Source: a virus
Length of the DNA stretch: 64,000 nucleotides
Direction: 5' to 3' (one strand)
IMG/VR virus record: IMGVR_UViG_3300038424_000251
Span: 248,001-312,000 of that record
The notes under the pieces are model-generated. The model did not search any database and had not been told where the DNA came from. It saw only the letters and a program-made list of their open reading frames with translations. This document shows positions 7,967 to 29,826 of this stretch, piece after piece (within the stretch, counting starts at the first letter, position 1; every line of letters begins with the position of its first letter). A program made the position numbers and the translations under genes.

Positions 7967-8704
7967 ATGAAAGTATCACCATCCGCAAAATTTTACAAAT
8001 ATTATCAGGTTATGTCACTAAAAAATGATGCAGATAAAGCTTTTTTTGATGATTTTGATGATGATTATAAAGATTTGTCCGTATCTCGTCCTTCAAGTTG
8101 GCCTTACCGTAGTTTGATTTCACAGTCAGTAGCAAAAGCAGCAAAGGATGAAGCAGCAGTTGTCGGGGCAACTCAACCACAACCAAAGGTTCAAAAACCG
8201 AATGTAATTCCTATAATGTTTGATGTAATCATTGGAAGTCCCAAACAAAACAATAACAACAATAAAAATTTTGTTGTCAATTCTTCTGATAAACTCCTTT
8301 ATTTGTCATTTAACCGTTATGTGATTCAAACAGCAATTAAGACATTTAATGATAATATTAAAAAGTATTATAACCAAACACTTCCCCGATTCATTATTAA
8401 GAGTGGTTGTGTTTCTTTGAATACCGGAAAAGATATTGAATTGTTATTTTATGGTTTAATATTTGATGATATTAAAATAACCGCTTCATTTATCTATTAC
8501 GATGATGCCTATGATGAATTTAATACTATAGAAAGTCTTAACATTTTGAATGAAATCAACCGAACTTGTGAATTTTTCATCTTGGGTGAATATGAATTGG
8601 ATGAAACAGAAGAGCACATAACCGACATGAAAATCGAATCTTTTGGTTATGTCAACCGAATTAGGAATATAAGGGAACAATTATATAAACAAAATGAATG
8701 GTAA
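7967..8704 (+). CDS. hypothetical protein
   Basis: 245 residues, unrecognised. An acidic segment near residue 25 (DDFDDDYKDL) and a low-complexity Asn stretch (NNNNN around residue 98) precede a C-terminal domain with FFILGEYELDETEEH, resembling the equivalent segments of the genes on either side. It overlaps the next gene by 11 bp, so the three are probably one operon. Confidence 0.65.
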   Translation: MKVSPSAKFYKYYQVMSLKNDADKAFFDDFDDDYKDLSVSRPSSWPYRSLISQSVAKAAKDEAAVVGATQPQPKVQKPNVIPIMFDVIIGSPKQNNNNNKNFVVNSSDKLLYLSFNRYVIQTAIKTFNDNIKKYYNQTLPRFIIKSGCVSLNTGKDIELLFYGLIFDDIKITASFIYYDDAYDEFNTIESLNILNEINRTCEFFILGEYELDETEEHITDMKIESFGYVNRIRNIREQLYKQNEW

Positions 8705-9218
8705 ATTTTTAACCACTATAACCGAAGTCCGGATTGGTAACAATGGACAACCGAACTTTTACATAACCGGAAAAAATGAAGCAATCGTAAAGCAAGCTTT
8801 AAAAGAGTTTACCGACAAAATGTTTGACACGCCTTGTGTTCATTATTATGTAAAAATTGACCAAACGGATTGTATCTTGGATTCTGTGGAATTGGCAGGA
8901 TGTGTAATATGGGCAAGTCTGCGATATTATACCATTGAAAAAGACAGTGAGGATGACAAATCTCTTGAAGAATCATTATTTGAAGAATCTTTGAGGCGTG
9001 GTGCATTGTTTTTAGGATGTGAATATGAATTTGACAGTGGAGAATATGTCAGTCCTCAATATTTGGGATTACCCAATGAGGATATGGAACGCATGTGTAT
9101 AAGCGATCAGTTAAATTTCATAAAATTCCATATGTTGTATTATTACAGTTATCCCACTTCACTTAATATTTCTGGTTATAGAAAAACAATTTATAGGATT
9201 CCTGAATTCAAGAGTTAA
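8694..9218 (+). CDS. hypothetical protein
   Basis: 174 residues, unrecognised, acidic. The segment LFLGCEYEFDSGEYVSP parallels FFILGEYELDETEEH in the preceding protein, suggesting distant paralogy. Its start codon lies inside the end of the 7967 gene (ATGAATGGTAA overlap). Confidence 0.6.
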   Translation: MNGKFLTTITEVRIGNNGQPNFYITGKNEAIVKQALKEFTDKMFDTPCVHYYVKIDQTDCILDSVELAGCVIWASLRYYTIEKDSEDDKSLEESLFEESLRRGALFLGCEYEFDSGEYVSPQYLGLPNEDMERMCISDQLNFIKFHMLYYYSYPTSLNISGYRKTIYRIPEFKS

Positions 9219-10739: not shown

Positions 10740-11435
10740 ATGAACATATACGAACTCAAAATATTGATTAAAGAAGTCATCCGCGAAACAAAAAAAATAT
10801 TAGCTGAAGCGGTAGAAGAGCAAGAAGAACCCAAAGCTCCTGATATAGGCATGAAACATTCTCTAGGTCATGAAAGGGAATATGGAACATTAAGTGACAC
10901 CATTGTTAGATTAAAACTTGGTGGTGTAAATAAAAATGCTATTCATATAATAAAAGATTTTATTGCACAAGCTGCATATGAAGCTAAAATGAATGATTTG
11001 AAAGTTATCAATGCAGATATACAAAAGCAAGGAAAGTCGGTATTAGCTATCGATGAACCAGAATTAAGAAGAATTACACCAACTGAAGCAGATATAGACA
11101 GAGAATTAGCAGCAGAACCAAAAGACCCAGATGAAATGACACCAGAAGAAAGATTAGCACTAATAAAACCGGGTGAAAAAGCAGCTGAATGGAAAGCAAT
11201 GGAAAAGCAGGAAAGAGAAGAAAATAGAAAAAAAGCTGAATTGAAAAAAGCAAAAATAGCTGCAGGAACTTATGACCCCAATGATACAAGTTTGTGGACA
11301 GATAGGGATTGGGATATTTGGAATAGGGAACATCCGGAAGAAACACCATCAGGTAAAGGATACAGGCCAAGCTATAAAAAGAGTAAAACTGGTCAAGTTA
11401 TGCCAAGATTGGGTCTTGGAACATTGAAGCATTAA
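10740..11435 (+). CDS. charged helical protein with shared N-terminal motif
   Basis: 231 residues. The N-terminus MNIYELKILIKEVIRETKK is the recurrent L-I-K-E-x-V motif. The rest is highly charged and probably coiled-coil or disordered: EQEEPKAP near residue 27 and a Lys/Glu-rich stretch at about 150-180 (KQEREENRKKAELKKAKIA). It resembles internal head or scaffold-type proteins in composition; not identified. The start at 10740 is preferred over an upstream codon because of the box at 10724. Confidence 0.6.
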   Translation: MNIYELKILIKEVIRETKKILAEAVEEQEEPKAPDIGMKHSLGHEREYGTLSDTIVRLKLGGVNKNAIHIIKDFIAQAAYEAKMNDLKVINADIQKQGKSVLAIDEPELRRITPTEADIDRELAAEPKDPDEMTPEERLALIKPGEKAAEWKAMEKQEREENRKKAELKKAKIAAGTYDPNDTSLWTDRDWDIWNREHPEETPSGKGYRPSYKKSKTGQVMPRLGLGTLKH

Positions 11436-15846: not shown

Positions 15847-17043
15847 ATGAATAATATAGAATTAATGGTAAAATCCCTCAAAGGTTTGTGGGTTGGTGAT
15901 TGTATTGGAAATGTTGGACAGTTTTATTACGCTCAAGACATATTAAAAGCGTTGGATGAAGGAATTGCTAAATTTGGGATAGATAACATAGACCCTATGG
16001 GAAAATCATTCCAATATTCCGATGACACGGAAGAGGCAATCGTTTTGGTAAATCACTTGTTTAACAACAAGAAAATTTTACAAGATAAGTTAGCGATGGA
16101 ATGGGCAACTAGATATTATACCCGTGACCCTGATGGTGAAATTTATGGTTACGGATTGATGACTAGGAAAGTGTTAAAAGATATTTATGAGGGTAAACCT
16201 TGGAGAGAAGCAAATTTAACATTTCAGAGAGGCGAAAGTCCATCAAACATTGATGTGTTAATAGGTGATATTGCGCATGGTAAATCTGTCAAAGATGCTT
16301 TATCGGAATTAAGAAAAGATGGTAGTCAAAAATTTCTTCCACAAAAAGTTGGTTCGTGTGGTAATGGGTCTGCTATGAGAATTCCTCCATTGGGTGCGTA
16401 TTTTTATCTTTCTCCAATTGAAGAAGTTGTTAAACAAGCAACGTTATCAGCAGAACCAACTCATTGTCATCCGGAAGGGATTGCTGGTGCTATTGCTATT
16501 GCATCATTAGCAAAGTGTATTTCGTTGTCTGAATGGGTATATAAATCGGAAAAGGTGTTGAATACAAATTATGTCACAGATATGGATACCAAGAAAATCT
16601 ATGATTACATCTTGGAATTTATTCCTGATAGCCAAGTAAAAAAAGGTATTCTTAAAGCAAAGGAACTTCCATTGGACATACCTTTGATGAAACTGATTGA
16701 AATTTTAGGAAATGGAACATATGTTACTTGTCAAGATACAGTTCCATTATGTGTATTTTTAACAATACAGGCATTATCCTTATATCCATTAGATGAAATG
16801 TATGAAAAGGTTTTAATTGATACTTGTAAATGTTTTGGTGATGTTGATACAAATTGTGCTATTGTTGGTGGTATGATTGGAATTATCAGTTCTCCACCTG
16901 AAAAATGGATAAGATATTGTCAACCAATGGAAGGAGTAATGGGTGACCCGTTGCCTGAAATTACAACACAAAGAAAAAGAACAGAATACAATGTTAATAA
17001 AGATGCTATAAAAGACATACTGAACAATATAAAAGAAAAATAA
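15847..17043 (+). CDS. ADP-ribosylglycohydrolase family protein
   Basis: 398 residues, PF03747-type. Metal-binding and active-site motifs are present in order: GLWVGDCIGN (residues 13-22), QYSDDTEEAI (normally TDDT), GSCGNGSAMRIPPLG, PTHCHPEGIAGAIAIA, and GDVDTNCAIVGGMIG (normally GDTDT). The overall order supports an active hydrolase that removes ADP-ribose from arginine-type or other acceptors. It differs enough from the next gene that the two are not a recent duplication. Confidence 0.88.
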   Translation: MNNIELMVKSLKGLWVGDCIGNVGQFYYAQDILKALDEGIAKFGIDNIDPMGKSFQYSDDTEEAIVLVNHLFNNKKILQDKLAMEWATRYYTRDPDGEIYGYGLMTRKVLKDIYEGKPWREANLTFQRGESPSNIDVLIGDIAHGKSVKDALSELRKDGSQKFLPQKVGSCGNGSAMRIPPLGAYFYLSPIEEVVKQATLSAEPTHCHPEGIAGAIAIASLAKCISLSEWVYKSEKVLNTNYVTDMDTKKIYDYILEFIPDSQVKKGILKAKELPLDIPLMKLIEILGNGTYVTCQDTVPLCVFLTIQALSLYPLDEMYEKVLIDTCKCFGDVDTNCAIVGGMIGIISSPPEKWIRYCQPMEGVMGDPLPEITTQRKRTEYNVNKDAIKDILNNIKEK

Positions 17044-17046
17044 TTT

Positions 17047-17895
17047 ATGATTGGAGCAATTATAGGAGATATAGTCGGTTCACCCTACGAAGGTGCTGGT
17101 CTTAATTTTGTAGATGATAGAAATTTTTCTTTGTTTGATGGAAGAAATTCACGTTTTACGGATGATACCGTTCTTACTTGCGCTACTGCTGATGCAATTT
17201 TACAAACATTTACTATTAATGATTCGCCTATAGGTTATCCTCCATTTGCAGAATTATACAAAAAGTGGGCGTCAAAATATCCAAATAAAGGATATGGAAG
17301 TGGATTTTATGAATGGGTTAGTGAAGGCGGAATTACAGTAAAGAATAGTTATGCAAATGGATGTATGATGCGTTGTAGTCCTATTGGTTTATACTATGAC
17401 GATTTTAATATAGCAAAATCTGTAGCATTAGAAAGTATCAGAATGACACATAATTCTCCAGAATCGGCTCGTGGAATTCAATCAATTGTTTCTGCCATTT
17501 ATATGGCATTGCATGGAAAGTCAAAATTACAAATTAAATCATATGTGGAAAAGAGTTTTGGTCATATGTTGAATATGACTGTTGAAGAACTACGATTGTT
17601 ACCAAAAACTACTATCAGATGTGATGTAACCGCTCCTCAAGCATTAATATGCTTTATGGAATCCACGGATTATGAGTCAGCCATTCGTAATGCAGTTTAT
17701 ACCAAGGGTGATACTGATACTATTGCAGCCATTGCAGGTTCCATTGCCGAAGCATTTTATGGTGTTCGTTCTATTCCTCAATCCACAATTGATAAAGCAA
17801 AACAAAGGTTGACGCCTGAAATAATTGAGTTAATAAACAAATTTTATTATACTATTGGAGAATATCATGAATCTTATAAGGATTTTATAATCTGA
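17047..17895 (+). CDS. ADP-ribosylglycohydrolase (DraG-like)
   Basis: 282 residues, compact member of the same family: IIGDIVGSPYEG at the N-terminus, RFTDDTVLTCATADA (residues 36-50), NGCMMRCSPIG, TKGDTDTIAAIAGSIAEA near residue 220. All metal ligands of the dinuclear Mg site expected for DraG-type enzymes are visible. It starts 4 nt after the preceding hydrolase. Possible role: reversing host- or phage-made ADP-ribosylation, including DarT-type defence (inference). Confidence 0.9.
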   Translation: MIGAIIGDIVGSPYEGAGLNFVDDRNFSLFDGRNSRFTDDTVLTCATADAILQTFTINDSPIGYPPFAELYKKWASKYPNKGYGSGFYEWVSEGGITVKNSYANGCMMRCSPIGLYYDDFNIAKSVALESIRMTHNSPESARGIQSIVSAIYMALHGKSKLQIKSYVEKSFGHMLNMTVEELRLLPKTTIRCDVTAPQALICFMESTDYESAIRNAVYTKGDTDTIAAIAGSIAEAFYGVRSIPQSTIDKAKQRLTPEIIELINKFYYTIGEYHESYKDFII

Positions 17896-18813: not shown

Positions 18814-18888
18814 GCTTCATTAGTTCAATGGCAAGAACAGGCGCCCCTAAACCGCCTTATAAGGGTTCAAGTCCCTTATGAAGCGCCA
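18814..18888 (+). tRNA. tRNA, anticodon CTA (amber-reading?)
   Basis: GCTTCAT / ATGAAGC acceptor, T-arm AAGGG-TTCAAGT-CCCTT, encoded CCA. Anticodon loop CCCTAAA gives CTA, which would read UAG; position 33 is C, not U, and the 31-39 pair is C-C. It may be a suppressor tRNA or a decayed gene. Confidence 0.55.
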
Positions 18889-20645: not shown

Positions 20646-21392
20646 ATGGTAGAAAAAACTATTACAATTTATGAAGGTGATTGTCTTAAAATTATGCCGG
20701 AAAAAGTATTTGATGAATCTGTGAATATGATTTTAGTTGATTTACCCTATGGGATTACACAGAATAAGTGGGATATTATAATACCATTCGATAAATTGTG
20801 GGAACAATATCATAGAATTATTAAACCCAATGGTGCCATGGTATTTACAGCAACTCAGCCATTTGCTAGCCGACTTGTTATGAGTAATCTTAAATTTTTT
20901 AGATATGATATAGTTTGGGAAAAAACTATTTCATCGGGACAAATGAATATAAATAATCAACCACTTCGAAGCCATGAATTGATTTTGGTCTTCTATAAAA
21001 AACTTCCAACTTATAACGAACAACGGACAAAGGGTACTCCTTATGAAATTAATCGTACAGGAAAATATAAAGCGGGAAGTTATAATCCTCAAAGACCGTC
21101 ATCTAAAAAAAATGACGGGTTTAGGCATGCTCGAAGTGTGATTAAGATTCCAAATCCAAGAATGAAAGATGGACATCCGACTCAAAAGCCAATAAAATTA
21201 TTGGAGTATTTGATAAAAACTTATACAAACGTAGGAGATGTTGTGATGGACAATTGTATGGGTGCAGGAACAACAGGTATAGCATGTCGAAATCTAAATC
21301 GAAAATTCATTGGAATTGAGATTGATAAGACATATTTTCAGAAAGCCAAGAAAGCATTAGACGAAGAAATATATAACCGTTTTTTTTCTTGA
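20646..21392 (+). CDS. DNA methyltransferase (N4/N6 type)
   Basis: 248 residues. Catalytic motif IV DLPYG (residues 32-36), then the AdoMet-binding FxGxG-equivalent near the C-terminus, NCMGAGTTGIACRNLNRKFI then GIEID. The catalytic motif before the AdoMet motif indicates the beta arrangement. HPTQKPIKLLEYLI is also typical. It transfers methyl to adenine N6 or cytosine N4 in DNA. The next gene looks like its restriction partner, so this may be a type II system rather than an orphan methylase. Confidence 0.9.
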   Translation: MVEKTITIYEGDCLKIMPEKVFDESVNMILVDLPYGITQNKWDIIIPFDKLWEQYHRIIKPNGAMVFTATQPFASRLVMSNLKFFRYDIVWEKTISSGQMNINNQPLRSHELILVFYKKLPTYNEQRTKGTPYEINRTGKYKAGSYNPQRPSSKKNDGFRHARSVIKIPNPRMKDGHPTQKPIKLLEYLIKTYTNVGDVVMDNCMGAGTTGIACRNLNRKFIGIEIDKTYFQKAKKALDEEIYNRFFS

Positions 21393-21456
21393 CCTTTTAT
21401 ATTTAATTTACGATAATAATTATTATTGATGTAAATTAAAATATACTAAATATGAA

Positions 21457-22125
21457 ATGAAACATACAAGAACATCAGCAGATCCAATAAAGGTGATAGA
21501 ATTACTAAATGAACTAAGTACCCCCGACCCCCGCTATATAGAACTGCGTGATATTATATATAATAGAAGAAATGAGAAGATGTTATTAGAACTTCCAATA
21601 ATTAGTTTTTTTCAATCTTTGTACTTTATGACTTCGCAGAAATATGGTTTTCTAATTCAAAAGAGAATAATAAAAGATATGGGTTATGGTCCCCCAAGAA
21701 ACAAGGATGCTGGGGATGCTTTTGGAAATGATAAGGATCAGGAAATAAAAGTTTCATTAATTACTTTGACTAACCCAAGTATTAATATAAGGCAGGTTCG
21801 TATGTGGCAAGGATGTGACTACAATATTTTAGGTGTAGATATGAGAGTTGCGGCTAATCCAACTATCTATTTTTTTAAACTTACACATTCTGATATGGAA
21901 CGTGAATTGGTTCTTTGTAAGGCAGGAAAAAGCCACACCCACGGAGAAGAAATGTCCCTTACTATTAACGTTGATAAAAGTGATGAACATTTTAATCGTT
22001 GGTGTAAAGATTACAGAATACCGTCTCCTTGGGATGATGAGTTAAATAAAAGATTTGTTCATTTTGCAAAAACGTTGCCCACGGTAACTGAGAATACCTT
22101 AATTCTAGAACCGCAAAATATATGA
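21457..22125 (+). CDS. putative type II restriction endonuclease
   Basis: 222 residues, 64 bp downstream of the methyltransferase on the same strand. Residues about 86-110 show a PD-(D/E)xK-like site: DAGDAFGNDKDQEIKVSLIT (Asp ... Glu-x-Lys), followed by NIRQVRMWQGCDYNILGVDM. The fold, length and gene pairing suggest the restriction partner. Specificity cannot be read. An alternative is a nicking or accessory nuclease. Confidence 0.65.
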   Translation: MKHTRTSADPIKVIELLNELSTPDPRYIELRDIIYNRRNEKMLLELPIISFFQSLYFMTSQKYGFLIQKRIIKDMGYGPPRNKDAGDAFGNDKDQEIKVSLITLTNPSINIRQVRMWQGCDYNILGVDMRVAANPTIYFFKLTHSDMERELVLCKAGKSHTHGEEMSLTINVDKSDEHFNRWCKDYRIPSPWDDELNKRFVHFAKTLPTVTENTLILEPQNI

Positions 22126-26708: not shown

Positions 26709-27395
26709 ATGAATGAAACAATAGTTACAATGTTTGACGATGAACTTAAAAATACAGTTGCTGAAATAAGCGATTTAATAACTATATCAGACGAAATTAT
26801 ACCAGATGAAATTAATGGAGAAAAATATTTTGAGAATCCAAATGGTGTAGAATTTGGACATTGGGTTGCCAATGAATATGTAGAAAAAGTTTTTGAAGGT
26901 ATTGTGTGTGGCGAAAATCCACATTATGACAAGAAGTGTGATGATAACAAACTTGAAATTAAAGTTATTCGAGCATCATCAAAAAAGGTAAGACCAACGA
27001 ATTGTGTAATAAGCTCTCCTACAAAGAACACATTCAATAGTCGTGCATTGAGGTCAATAGATGATGATTTTAGTCATGGACTTGATAAAAATGGTAAATG
27101 TCAATCTTTAAGTAATACGTCATTTCAGCAAACGAACCCATCGGAATTTGATATTTTTATAGGGTTTGTATTTTTCTTGGACAAAGTCAGAGTGTATGTT
27201 ATTCCATCTGAGAATATTGCACATACCATTGGTGAAGTTAGTGATAGGATAAATCTTGTGCCGCAACATAGGAATCCGAAGGAAGGACACCTTTTGTTAA
27301 GAAATATTCACGCTAAGCCAGAAAAATTTATTATGTTCGAATTAATTCATAATAATAATATCTCTCTTAGAAATTTGGGAGATTATTTACAATGA
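26709..27395 (+). CDS. putative type II restriction endonuclease
   Basis: 228 residues, overlapping the following methyltransferase by 4 bp (ATGA). Residues about 75-90 give CDDNKLEIKVIRASSKK, a D...ExK catalytic pattern. TNPSEFDIFIGFVFFL and VRVYVIPSENI form a typical core strand-helix set. The tight coupling to an N6-adenine methylase argues for a restriction enzyme. Recognition site unknown. Confidence 0.72.
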   Translation: MNETIVTMFDDELKNTVAEISDLITISDEIIPDEINGEKYFENPNGVEFGHWVANEYVEKVFEGIVCGENPHYDKKCDDNKLEIKVIRASSKKVRPTNCVISSPTKNTFNSRALRSIDDDFSHGLDKNGKCQSLSNTSFQQTNPSEFDIFIGFVFFLDKVRVYVIPSENIAHTIGEVSDRINLVPQHRNPKEGHLLLRNIHAKPEKFIMFELIHNNNISLRNLGDYLQ

Positions 27396-28840
27396 ATGTA
27401 GTTGATAAAGACATATCTTCTAAAAAGAAAAGATTAGGACAATTCTTAACACCACCCAATTTAGTAAATTTTTGTTTGGACAAAATTCAAATAAATACCA
27501 ACTTAATAATAGAACCTAGTTGTGGAAATGGTGCATTTTTAAATGCTATAAGATGTGCAACGTCTGATAATCATCAAATTATAGGGATAGAATTAGACGC
27601 AGAATTAGCAAAACAATATACAGGTAAAGAAACAATTTTAGTAAAAAATTTTTATGATTATGATTATGAGTATGATTTTTCCACACCAAGAGATGTTACG
27701 TTTATTGGAAATCCCCCGTTTAGAAGTCCTGCCGCCTCTCTAAAAACACATCGCTCACGCATTCAACAATTGATGGAAATATATTCTATCAAAGGTATAA
27801 AAGAAGAATCTGTGTTTTTTCTAATAAACACGATTCATTTAATTCTTACACATAGGGTTAAAGGATTTATTCATTATATTTTGCCAAAATCCATATTTCA
27901 GAATAATTCTACAAGGTGTGAATCTTTTATATTATTTTTGAAAAAATATGTCAAGTTATTACAGGTTTGGGATATAAATAAATTTCCAGATGTGAATCAA
28001 AAACTTGTTTTCGTATCAATGGAAATTGACAATAACCGTTCTAATAATAATTCATTTAAATATAATGGAGAAATCAAATTGGTTGATGAGTTTTATGGTA
28101 ATAATACACAGTATATAACTTTTCAAAATATATTCAAGAAAACATATTTGGGGTCGGTACCATGTGAAAGTCTATTTTTGTCTATTTCAGATGAATCAAA
28201 AATACAATTTAAAAATAGACTGATCAAAATATTTCATCCAGATACAGTTATTACTTGCGAAACATTGAAAGATTTGCTCACATTTGATGGAAATCAACAT
28301 ATTAGAAGTGTAAAAAGGGGTAGCGCAAACAAAATAAAAAAATTGATTGAATATATACATGAAATAAAAAAATTAAACGGATTCGATTATCATTTATTTG
28401 AAGATTTAGAAAATTATAAACCAATTCAACATAGAAATGAAAAAAGATTTTATTTTAGACATGAATTTTTGAAAAAGTCTTCTTTCGTTTACATATTGAA
28501 TAGTAATCCATGCCCTTCTTTTTATTTTCCGGGTAATCCCAGTTCCAATTCAACGGATTATTTTGGATTTTGTGATTATGATGTAAATAGAAATAGTGGT
28601 CCGGGAGCCAACAGATGTGTGCCAGTAGTTGGAATTGAGGATAATTTGTGTGATGACTTTAAGAAGTATTGGGATAAGAATACAAACGGGCTTCCATATG
28701 GTAAGGTTTTTTCATATATCATATTTATTTCAAAATCGGAATGGTATAAAAATTTAAAAAATATATATCATAGATTTTACTTTGGAATTCCAGAAGTGTT
28801 TGATACATCATTTTTAAAAAATGTTGACATATCTTCTTAA
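27392..28840 (+). CDS. N6-adenine DNA methyltransferase
   Basis: 482 residues. KKRLGQFLTPPNLVNF, AdoMet motif I IIEPSCGNGAFLNAI (residues about 35-50), IGIELDAELA, and catalytic motif IV IGNPPFRSP (about 108). This is the gamma arrangement of HsdM/Eco57I-like type II methylases. The large C-terminal half is probably the target-recognition domain. It would methylate adenine within the site cut by the preceding enzyme. Confidence 0.9.
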   Translation: MNVVDKDISSKKKRLGQFLTPPNLVNFCLDKIQINTNLIIEPSCGNGAFLNAIRCATSDNHQIIGIELDAELAKQYTGKETILVKNFYDYDYEYDFSTPRDVTFIGNPPFRSPAASLKTHRSRIQQLMEIYSIKGIKEESVFFLINTIHLILTHRVKGFIHYILPKSIFQNNSTRCESFILFLKKYVKLLQVWDINKFPDVNQKLVFVSMEIDNNRSNNNSFKYNGEIKLVDEFYGNNTQYITFQNIFKKTYLGSVPCESLFLSISDESKIQFKNRLIKIFHPDTVITCETLKDLLTFDGNQHIRSVKRGSANKIKKLIEYIHEIKKLNGFDYHLFEDLENYKPIQHRNEKRFYFRHEFLKKSSFVYILNSNPCPSFYFPGNPSSNSTDYFGFCDYDVNRNSGPGANRCVPVVGIEDNLCDDFKKYWDKNTNGLPYGKVFSYIIFISKSEWYKNLKNIYHRFYFGIPEVFDTSFLKNVDISS

Positions 28841-28851
28841 TGGTGTATAAT
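28824..28851 (+). promoter_or_regulatory. consensus promoter
   Basis: TTGACA, 16 bp, TATAAT, inside the end of the methyltransferase gene; 21 nt to the ATG at 28873. Confidence 0.7.
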
Positions 28852-28872
28852 TATAGTTGTATTTATAAAAAC

Positions 28873-29049
28873 ATGAATGAACATCATTGTTTTAAGTGCG
28901 GTAAAATCATTAAAGAATGTATGGGGTTTGTTTTAGCTAGGGATTTTTTAAATGACAGTAAAAATCCTAGAGAGCTTTGTGGAAAATGTATTTTATTAAT
29001 TATCGATGATAGTTCTGTGATAAATTTGTTAAAAAATTCATATGAATGA
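28873..29049 (+). CDS. small zinc-ribbon protein
   Basis: 58 residues: HCFKCGKIIKECMG and ELCGKCILLI give a CxxC...CxxC ribbon. The upstream in-frame ATG at 28840 lies in the promoter, so 28873 is preferred. First gene of a four-gene overlapping unit ending with the MoaD/ThiS-like gene. Confidence 0.65.
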   Translation: MNEHHCFKCGKIIKECMGFVLARDFLNDSKNPRELCGKCILLIIDDSSVINLLKNSYE

Positions 29050-29335
29050 TATAATCAAACAAGATGATGAAAAATTGTGTGAGATGATAGTAAAACAATA
29101 TCCTGATGGATATCCTATTTTCGAAACTGACAATGCTATAGAAAATGACGATTTAAAAATCGAAGAATTATTAGACCTTCAATCGGTATCTGAATTGCCA
29201 CCAGAACCTTCTTCTATAGAAGATAAATATGAGGAAGAGCTTTTATTTAAACAAATTGCTGAGGATATAGTTAGAAGGTTGAATGAAGAACCTATGATTA
29301 TAGAATATGATGATGAAGGAGATATGGAAGGATAA
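29042..29335 (+). CDS. small acidic protein
   Basis: 97 residues, very acidic, overlapping the preceding gene by 8 bp. It contains SSIEDKYEEELLFKQIAEDI, which reappears as NIEDKYEKELFRVHEENL in the next protein, so the two share a segment and may be paralogs. Function unknown; in an operon with the ubiquitin-like gene. Confidence 0.6.
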   Translation: MNDIIKQDDEKLCEMIVKQYPDGYPIFETDNAIENDDLKIEELLDLQSVSELPPEPSSIEDKYEEELLFKQIAEDIVRRLNEEPMIIEYDDEGDMEG

Positions 29336-29342
29336 AATATCT

Positions 29343-29561
29343 ATGTTAAATAAAGATGATATATATTTTTATGAATTGCTTTGTAAACAAGTAATTCATA
29401 AGAAAAGAAAAAATGCTGTTGCTAAAATGCCCGAAAGAATATATGATAATTTTGATAAAAAGAAAAAATTGCCTGAAAATATAGAAGATAAGTATGAGAA
29501 GGAATTATTTAGGGTGCATGAAGAAAATTTAATGGAAGAAGCTTTTAGGTCAGATGAATAA
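29343..29561 (+). CDS. small charged protein
   Basis: 72 residues. The ATG at 29343 is preferred to 29307 because it avoids overlap with the preceding gene. It shares an IEDKYExEL segment with that gene. It overlaps the MoaD/ThiS-like gene by 8 bp, indicating coupled translation. Confidence 0.55.
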   Translation: MLNKDDIYFYELLCKQVIHKKRKNAVAKMPERIYDNFDKKKKLPENIEDKYEKELFRVHEENLMEEAFRSDE

Positions 29562-29826
29562 CATATTAATACCTGAACAATTGAAGAAAGTTGTTGGTGG
29601 ACAAAAAGTTTTAACATTGGAATTGACAAGCATATCTGATTTGATTGAACAGCTTTCATCCTTATATCCACAGGCAAAAGAGCGTTTAATCAATGAAAAA
29701 GGAGAATTTAACAGGTTTATCAATGTGTATGTGAATGGTGAGGATATACGGTTTCTAAATTCAATAAACACGAAGATTAATAATGGGGATGAAATTAGCA
29801 TAATTCCAGCTATTGCTGGCGGATAA
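29554..29826 (+). CDS. MoaD/ThiS-like ubiquitin-fold protein with C-terminal Gly-Gly
   Basis: 90 residues. TLELTSISDLIEQLSSLYPQ, then RFINVYVNGEDIRFLNS, then NNGDEISIIPAIAGG: the beta-grasp layout and the terminal IIPAIAGG match MoaD/ThiS sulfur carriers, whose exposed Gly-Gly is adenylated by an E1-like partner. No E1 or JAMM gene is visible nearby, so it may use host enzymes. It could carry sulfur (for example for tRNA thiolation or cysteine synthesis) or modify proteins. Confidence 0.85.
   Translation: MNNILIPEQLKKVVGGQKVLTLELTSISDLIEQLSSLYPQAKERLINEKGEFNRFINVYVNGEDIRFLNSINTKINNGDEISIIPAIAGG

Follow-up and report, generated by a model that had tools for sequence, protein, structure and literature searches.

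Bacterial proteins of the CysO type are mainly known as sulfur carriers. One of them is CysO of Mycobacterium tuberculosis (3dwg, 3dwm), which carries the sulfur when cysteine is made by way of a protein thiocarboxylate and which belongs to a system of four components, CysO, MoeZ, CysM and Mec+. It shares its beta-grasp fold with a CysO-type ThiS/MoaD protein of Amycolatopsis (4n6e). One activating enzyme can serve more than one carrier: mycobacterial MoeZR is described as acting on both MoaD and CysO (PMC3227635). The modifiers SAMP1, of archaea, and Urm1 belong to the same superfamily and have the same kind of C-terminal tail. In phages, the tail assembly protein I of lambda contains a ubiquitin-like domain with a conserved glycine and has a JAB partner (PMC1779556).

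Sulfur-relay genes have already been reported in viral contigs. The auxiliary gene lists of virome surveys contain moaD (PMC12092443), cysO (PMC12090736), and mec, moeB and thiF (PMC10134843). In the lists concerned, these surveys give annotations, and none of the lists covers the phage family studied here, the orphan state of the gene or the conservation of its tail. The literature searched yielded no study of jumbo phages that deals with an orphan carrier of the CysO type. The carrier described below is a further case of such a viral gene.

The stretch of DNA analysed, the window, comprises 64,000 nucleotides and runs from base 248001 to base 312000 of a linear virus record of 365,299 bases (G000). 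Coordinates are given in window numbering unless preceded by the label of another locus. The virus is a jumbo phage, and its replication genes are T4-like. The gene for the carrier is the last in a run of overlapping frames:

26709..27395, + strand: overlaps the methyltransferase; product without assigned family, by its position a candidate restriction endonuclease; listed as a neighbour only
27392..28840, + strand: N6 adenine DNA methyltransferase-like protein (PF02384, 21.7 bits, cut-off 20.4); listed as a neighbour only
28840..29049, + strand: probable zinc ribbon of small size, two CxxC pairs, internal ATG at 28873 (FYVE below cut-off); listed as a neighbour only
29042..29335, + strand: small, strongly acidic protein of 97 aa, pI 4.05, without family; listed as a neighbour only
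29307..29561, + strand: small protein of 84 aa (72 aa if the start is at 29343), pI 6.75, without family; listed as a neighbour only
29554..29826, + strand: CysO/MoaD-type beta-grasp sulfur-carrier protein of 90 aa (assigned from families, PDB sequences, fold, GG conservation and purifying selection)

Family, fold and tail of the carrier

The product of 29554-29826 certainly belongs to the MoaD/ThiS superfamily. The superfamily profile is matched above its curated cut-off over the whole protein, with 58.2 bits (E 1.2e-15, cut-off 22.5) for Pfam ThiS (PF02597) and 57.7 bits (cut-off 49.5) for NCBIfam TIGR01687. The equivalog models of narrower function are not reached: the protein scores 18.2 against a cut-off of 66.15 for the MoaD of molybdopterin synthesis (TIGR01682), 16.3 against 37.45 for the ThiS of thiamine synthesis (TIGR01683), and 53.9 bits against 60 for SAMP1 (NF041918).

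The best solved relatives by sequence are the CysO-type chains 4n6e_B and 3dwg_C (E ~3e-15), which are about 37% identical to the phage protein and have in common with it an N-terminal IPxxL, a VNxEDxRF motif and a P-A-x-A-G-G tail. The fold predicted by AlphaFold2 (mean pLDDT 88.7) is a ubiquitin-like beta-grasp that matches 3dwg_C, the CysO of the CysO-CysM complex, with a TM-score of 0.87 at 37% identity. It also matches SAMP1 and Urm1. Judged by sequence comparison and modelled fold, CysO is the closest solved relative of the carrier. The 90-residue frame ends in IIPAIAGG and the stop codon follows directly after the second glycine. A MoaD/ThiS-like ubiquitin fold and an exposed C-terminal Gly-Gly had both been claimed in an earlier, sequence-only reading of the window, and both are borne out by these matches and by the frame itself.

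A weak match to PHROG 32, 'tail assembly protein' (E = 0.036), could point to a structural or assembly role like that of the ubiquitin-like domain of the lambda tail protein I (TAPI), which is already known in phages and in which a glycine is conserved (PMC1779556). The profile similarity is marginal, however, and the carrier is much nearer to CysO than to TAPI. It differs from TAPI in position, size and partners, as it is a standalone protein of 90 aa encoded outside any tail cluster, in the tRNA/restriction-modification region, with no JAB partner. A role of this kind is therefore highly improbable.

Relatives in bacteria and in viruses

The best 80 bacterial relatives come mostly from Chloroflexota and Verrucomicrobiota and are 44-54% identical to the phage protein. 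In 49 of the 80, the carrier gene lies at most 400 nt behind a gene for a PALP-family PLP enzyme (PALP 1.7e-70), which is a threonine synthase by NCBIfam, and at 27 loci a NIL-domain protein is encoded nearby. The closest cellular relatives are MoaD-like proteins beside a threonine-synthase-like enzyme, which points to amino-acid sulfur metabolism. The phage gene differs from them in having neither a PALP nor a NIL neighbour, and many of the bacterial forms extend past the GG: about 43 of the best 80 end at it and about 37 have at least one residue after it, counts that were read onward from the end of the match, a few of them being approximate. The exact GG of the phage carriers means that a processing peptidase is not needed. 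Of 20 sampled genomes of bacteria with close relatives, 18 encode a ThiF/MoeB-type E1.

The combination of a threonine-synthase-like PALP enzyme, a NIL-domain protein and a CysO-type carrier forms a widespread bacterial cluster (L026-L105, for example L101, L034 and L072), in which the carrier often has one to several residues behind the GG. A description of this cluster was not found in the literature searched.

Among 50,697 records of cultured phages, tblastn detected no relative of the carrier at E <= 1e-5; relaxing the threshold to E <= 10 added nothing but noise. Relatives were found in 16 uncultivated viral contigs. IMG/VR was scanned three times, with 17 rows as the outcome. The proteins of L001 and L002 are identical to that of the window, and L108 and L109 encode the same protein; when near-duplicates are left out, 14 further proteins remain. 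Conservation of the tail was the test set beforehand, and the exact GG-stop ending is present in every viral relative. The signature VNxEDIRF...DEISIxPAxAGG is also kept among the relatives. Synonymous sites are saturated in most pairs of viral carriers, with dN of 0.2-0.4 within the clade, and the only close pair, L006/L007, has a dN of 0.05 against a dS of 0.25. Saturation at synonymous sites, together with the small number of protein changes, shows that selection acts on the GG tail and the fold.

One viral relative, L110, exceeds the SAMP1 cut-off of 60 with 63.3 bits, and the window protein comes near it. The carrier might therefore be a protein modifier that a host E1 charges for attachment to lysines in proteins of the host or the phage, in the manner of archaeal SAMP1 or Urm1. 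The match of the fold to SAMP1 and Urm1 and a GG tail that is ready for use speak for such a modifier. Against it, bacterial CysO-type proteins are mainly known for sulfur carriage, the linkage seen in the bacterial relatives is with PLP enzymes and not with JAMM or E2, the window protein itself stays under the curated cut-off, and no conjugation machinery, neither E1 nor JAMM, was found in the phage records searched. Conjugation is thus an unlikely alternative.

In the phylogenetic tree, a supported branch (96/94) sets the carriers of the window, L003, L004, L005 and L112 apart from the rest, and the placement of L112 is less sure because of its long branch. The phage carriers have no firm place inside any bacterial group whose function is known. 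A single origin for all of them is not rejected (p-AU 0.31) in a phylogeny which, with 90 residues, is weakly resolved.

The positions of the gene differ among the members of this branch. L003 and L005 are syntenic with the phage of the window over the replication block, and in both the carrier gene follows the gene for a 5'-3' exonuclease, with a start that coincides with the final base of the exonuclease frame. In the phage of the window this slot is occupied by a DNA methylase gene instead of the carrier gene. In L112 the carrier gene is found among late genes; several late proteins of L112 are 83-91% identical to those of the window's phage, and its carrier is only 40% identical to that of the window. 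The position in L004 has little in common with the window's genome, and in a second set of viral contigs the carrier gene again has other surroundings. Because the 96/94 branch holds despite the differing positions, the carrier gene has probably been inherited within the phage family and then relocated, as the tree and the gene maps suggest. Within this one phage family the tail has been conserved through relocations, which argues that the phage needs the carrier itself.

Several features of these contigs may be recorded here. The methylase in the slot where relatives have the sulfur carrier gene (L010:8040-8771) is paralogous and 42% identical. In L112, a gene for a NifU/IscU-type Fe-S scaffold (10848-11270; NifU_N E 1.5e-49) lies two kilobases from the carrier gene. 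Such a scaffold is absent from the record of the window, although L112 is a close relative, and none of the 13 records searched besides L112 has one; a link of the carrier to Fe-S assembly was dropped for that reason. In L024, an S-adenosylmethionine decarboxylase gene (8294-8749) lies nine bases behind the carrier gene. Its product starts with MNxDxHLLxEAY, a start common to many proteins, among them neighbours in L006, L007 and L025, which is possibly another packaging signal.

Neighbouring genes and partner genes

The genes at 26709-27395 and 27392-28840 likely form a restriction-modification pair. A similar arrangement, a methyltransferase gene next to one for a candidate restriction endonuclease without assigned family, occurs twice in the window, at 20646-22125 and at 26709-28840. 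The stop of the methyltransferase frame overlaps the start at 28840 by 1 nt, and the following overlaps are 8 nt (28840/29042), 29 nt (29042/29307) and 8 nt (29307/29554). The translational coupling proposed earlier is borne out as far as the frames overlap, except that the overlap between the frames at 29042 and 29307 vanishes if the latter starts at the equally possible ATG at 29343, which stands behind GGAAGGA.

The small proteins had been read as two acidic proteins that share an IEDKYExEL segment, and as a zinc ribbon. The shared segment is present in both and occurs nowhere else in the six frames of the 365-kb record; it is short, with 13 residues in common (E = 4e-4 for that single comparison). 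Only the product of 29042-29335 is acidic (pI 4.05), that of 29307 being near neutral (pI 6.75). The two CxxC pairs make a zinc ribbon plausible, although the FYVE match stays at 19.6 bits, under its cut-off of 27.8. The neighbours are not conserved alongside the carrier gene in related phages, so the overlap is no evidence that the carrier works jointly with the small proteins. A functional operon of the small proteins, the zinc ribbon and the restriction-modification genes was accordingly given up, as none of them accompanies the carrier in related phages.

The partner genes of the CysO system, cysM (PALP), mec+ (JAMM) and an E1, are all lacking in the phage record. The 365-kb record, the ends of which may be missing, contains no match to PF00899 (E1). 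It also contains none to PF14464 (Prok-JAB), PF00291 (PALP, the cysteine-synthase-type PLP enzyme), PF00581 (rhodanese) or PF01171 (the PP-loop tRNA thiolase). An E1 is likewise absent from the 16 related viral records, and a JAB from the records of the first set. The absence weighs most for the 365-kb record, because all the viral records are either fragments or records whose completeness is not known. The earlier statement that no E1 is visible thus extends from the window to all these records, and the search it had suggested for ThiF/MoeB, JAMM and tRNA thiolases yields none in the 365-kb record. Profile searches and inspection of the open reading frames recognised no other sulfur-assimilation gene in this phage.

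The candidates that came up were rejected. An Aminotran_5 match in G000, considered as a cysteine desulfurase, is a DegT/DnrJ-type sugar aminotransferase. Two sub-cut-off PALP matches in relatives (10.9 and 11.1 bits) apparently lie within a phosphoribosyltransferase-like frame. The only PP-loop protein of the SGGxDS type in G000 is an NAD synthetase, and one relative has QueC.

In contrast to CysO, the phage carrier is encoded without a mec/JAMM, cysM or E1 gene linked to it. As the host could supply these partners, the protein is filed as CysO-type and not as part of a CysO system.

The partnerless state of the carrier in the phage, the selection acting on it and its position next to restriction-modification-type genes in the window would also suit a decoy or inhibitor, which occupies a host E1 or a deconjugase of an antiviral ubiquitin-like system (CBASS with Cap2, or Bil) or of host sulfur metabolism. 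Bacterial ubiquitin-like conjugation is reported to act against viruses (PMC10097602). A decoy would, however, hardly need the full VNxEDIRF...DEISIxPAxAGG signature, and the whole fold and all residues of the tail are retained, which makes this role quite unlikely. Taken more broadly, it is conceivable, if doubtful, that jumbo phages retain a ubiquitin-like protein, mobile and without partners, either as a host-E1-charged modifier of host or phage proteins or as a jammer of antiviral conjugation. If conjugation or decoy activity were true, phages would tap prokaryotic ubiquitin-like chemistry.

Proposed function

With no enzymes of its own, an intact tail for charging, selection on the protein and no fixed neighbour, the simplest reading is that the carrier acts through host enzymes. 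We propose, with a probability of roughly 0.55, that it is a phage-encoded sulfur carrier which is activated by a host E1 of the MoeB/ThiF type and feeds a host sulfur-transfer enzyme. The gene for the orphan CysO (TIGR01687 MoaD-family) carrier would then serve a T4-like jumbo phage as an auxiliary metabolic gene. In the infected cell, a MoeB/MoeZ/ThiF-type E1 of the host would adenylate the C-terminal glycine, and a host sulfur source, a rhodanese or a cysteine desulfurase, would turn the adenylated tail into a thiocarboxylate. The thiocarboxylate tail would hand the sulfur to a host enzyme, for which a PLP enzyme producing cysteine or homocysteine is the likeliest candidate and tRNA thiolation a less likely one. 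The extra carrier may raise the sulfur flux for the synthesis of phage proteins or cofactors. Borrowing of a host MoeB or ThiF, as suggested earlier, agrees with the lack of a phage E1 and with the E1 genes in 18 of the 20 genomes sampled; the host E1 itself is something that we infer. The phage offers a testable case in which a virus contributes nothing but the consumable carrier to a sulfur or ubiquitin-like pathway of its host and leaves charging and use to host enzymes.

ThiS/MoaD-like carriers take part in tRNA thiolation in eukaryotes and in Thermus. A similar role has been proposed for archaeal ones (PMC2948915), and as the window contains 43 tRNA genes besides a tmRNA, the main use of the carrier might be as sulfur donor for the thiolation of phage or host tRNAs. 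The earlier suggestion of such a link to the tRNA array is weakened by the lack of a PP-loop thiolase in the 365-kb record, and a thiolation module in the phage was rejected on this ground. Moreover, the carrier gene of the relatives, inspected by eye, was not seen in a tRNA array, and the nearest families are CysO types. Thiolation as the main use is thus very unlikely, and sulfur transfer to a host enzyme of amino-acid metabolism is preferred.

The tRNA array itself includes, at 18814-18888, a tRNA with a CTA anticodon (ARAGORN, label Pyl), which is likely an amber suppressor tRNA. Three radical SAM proteins are encoded in G000 at a distance from the carrier gene, and no link to the carrier emerged. 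The genome also contains a large NAD/ADP-ribose gene set, with L016:3237-5463, L016:10730-14104, L015:15323-17413, window 15847-17895 and L012:18973-19548 as examples. Its members are a nicotinate phosphoribosyltransferase, the NAD synthetase, a probable NMN adenylyltransferase, a nicotinamidase and a PRPP synthetase, identified by eye, together with two ADP-ribosylglycohydrolases and a macro domain. Lastly, an N-terminal helix, MKKSQLKxLIKEIVxE, is common to at least eight proteins (window 10701 and 36162; L008:11288 and 12466; L009:9694 and 10191; L012:7067; L023:6613). It resembles the capsid-targeting sequences of T4, and the proteins that bear it are possibly packaged internal proteins.
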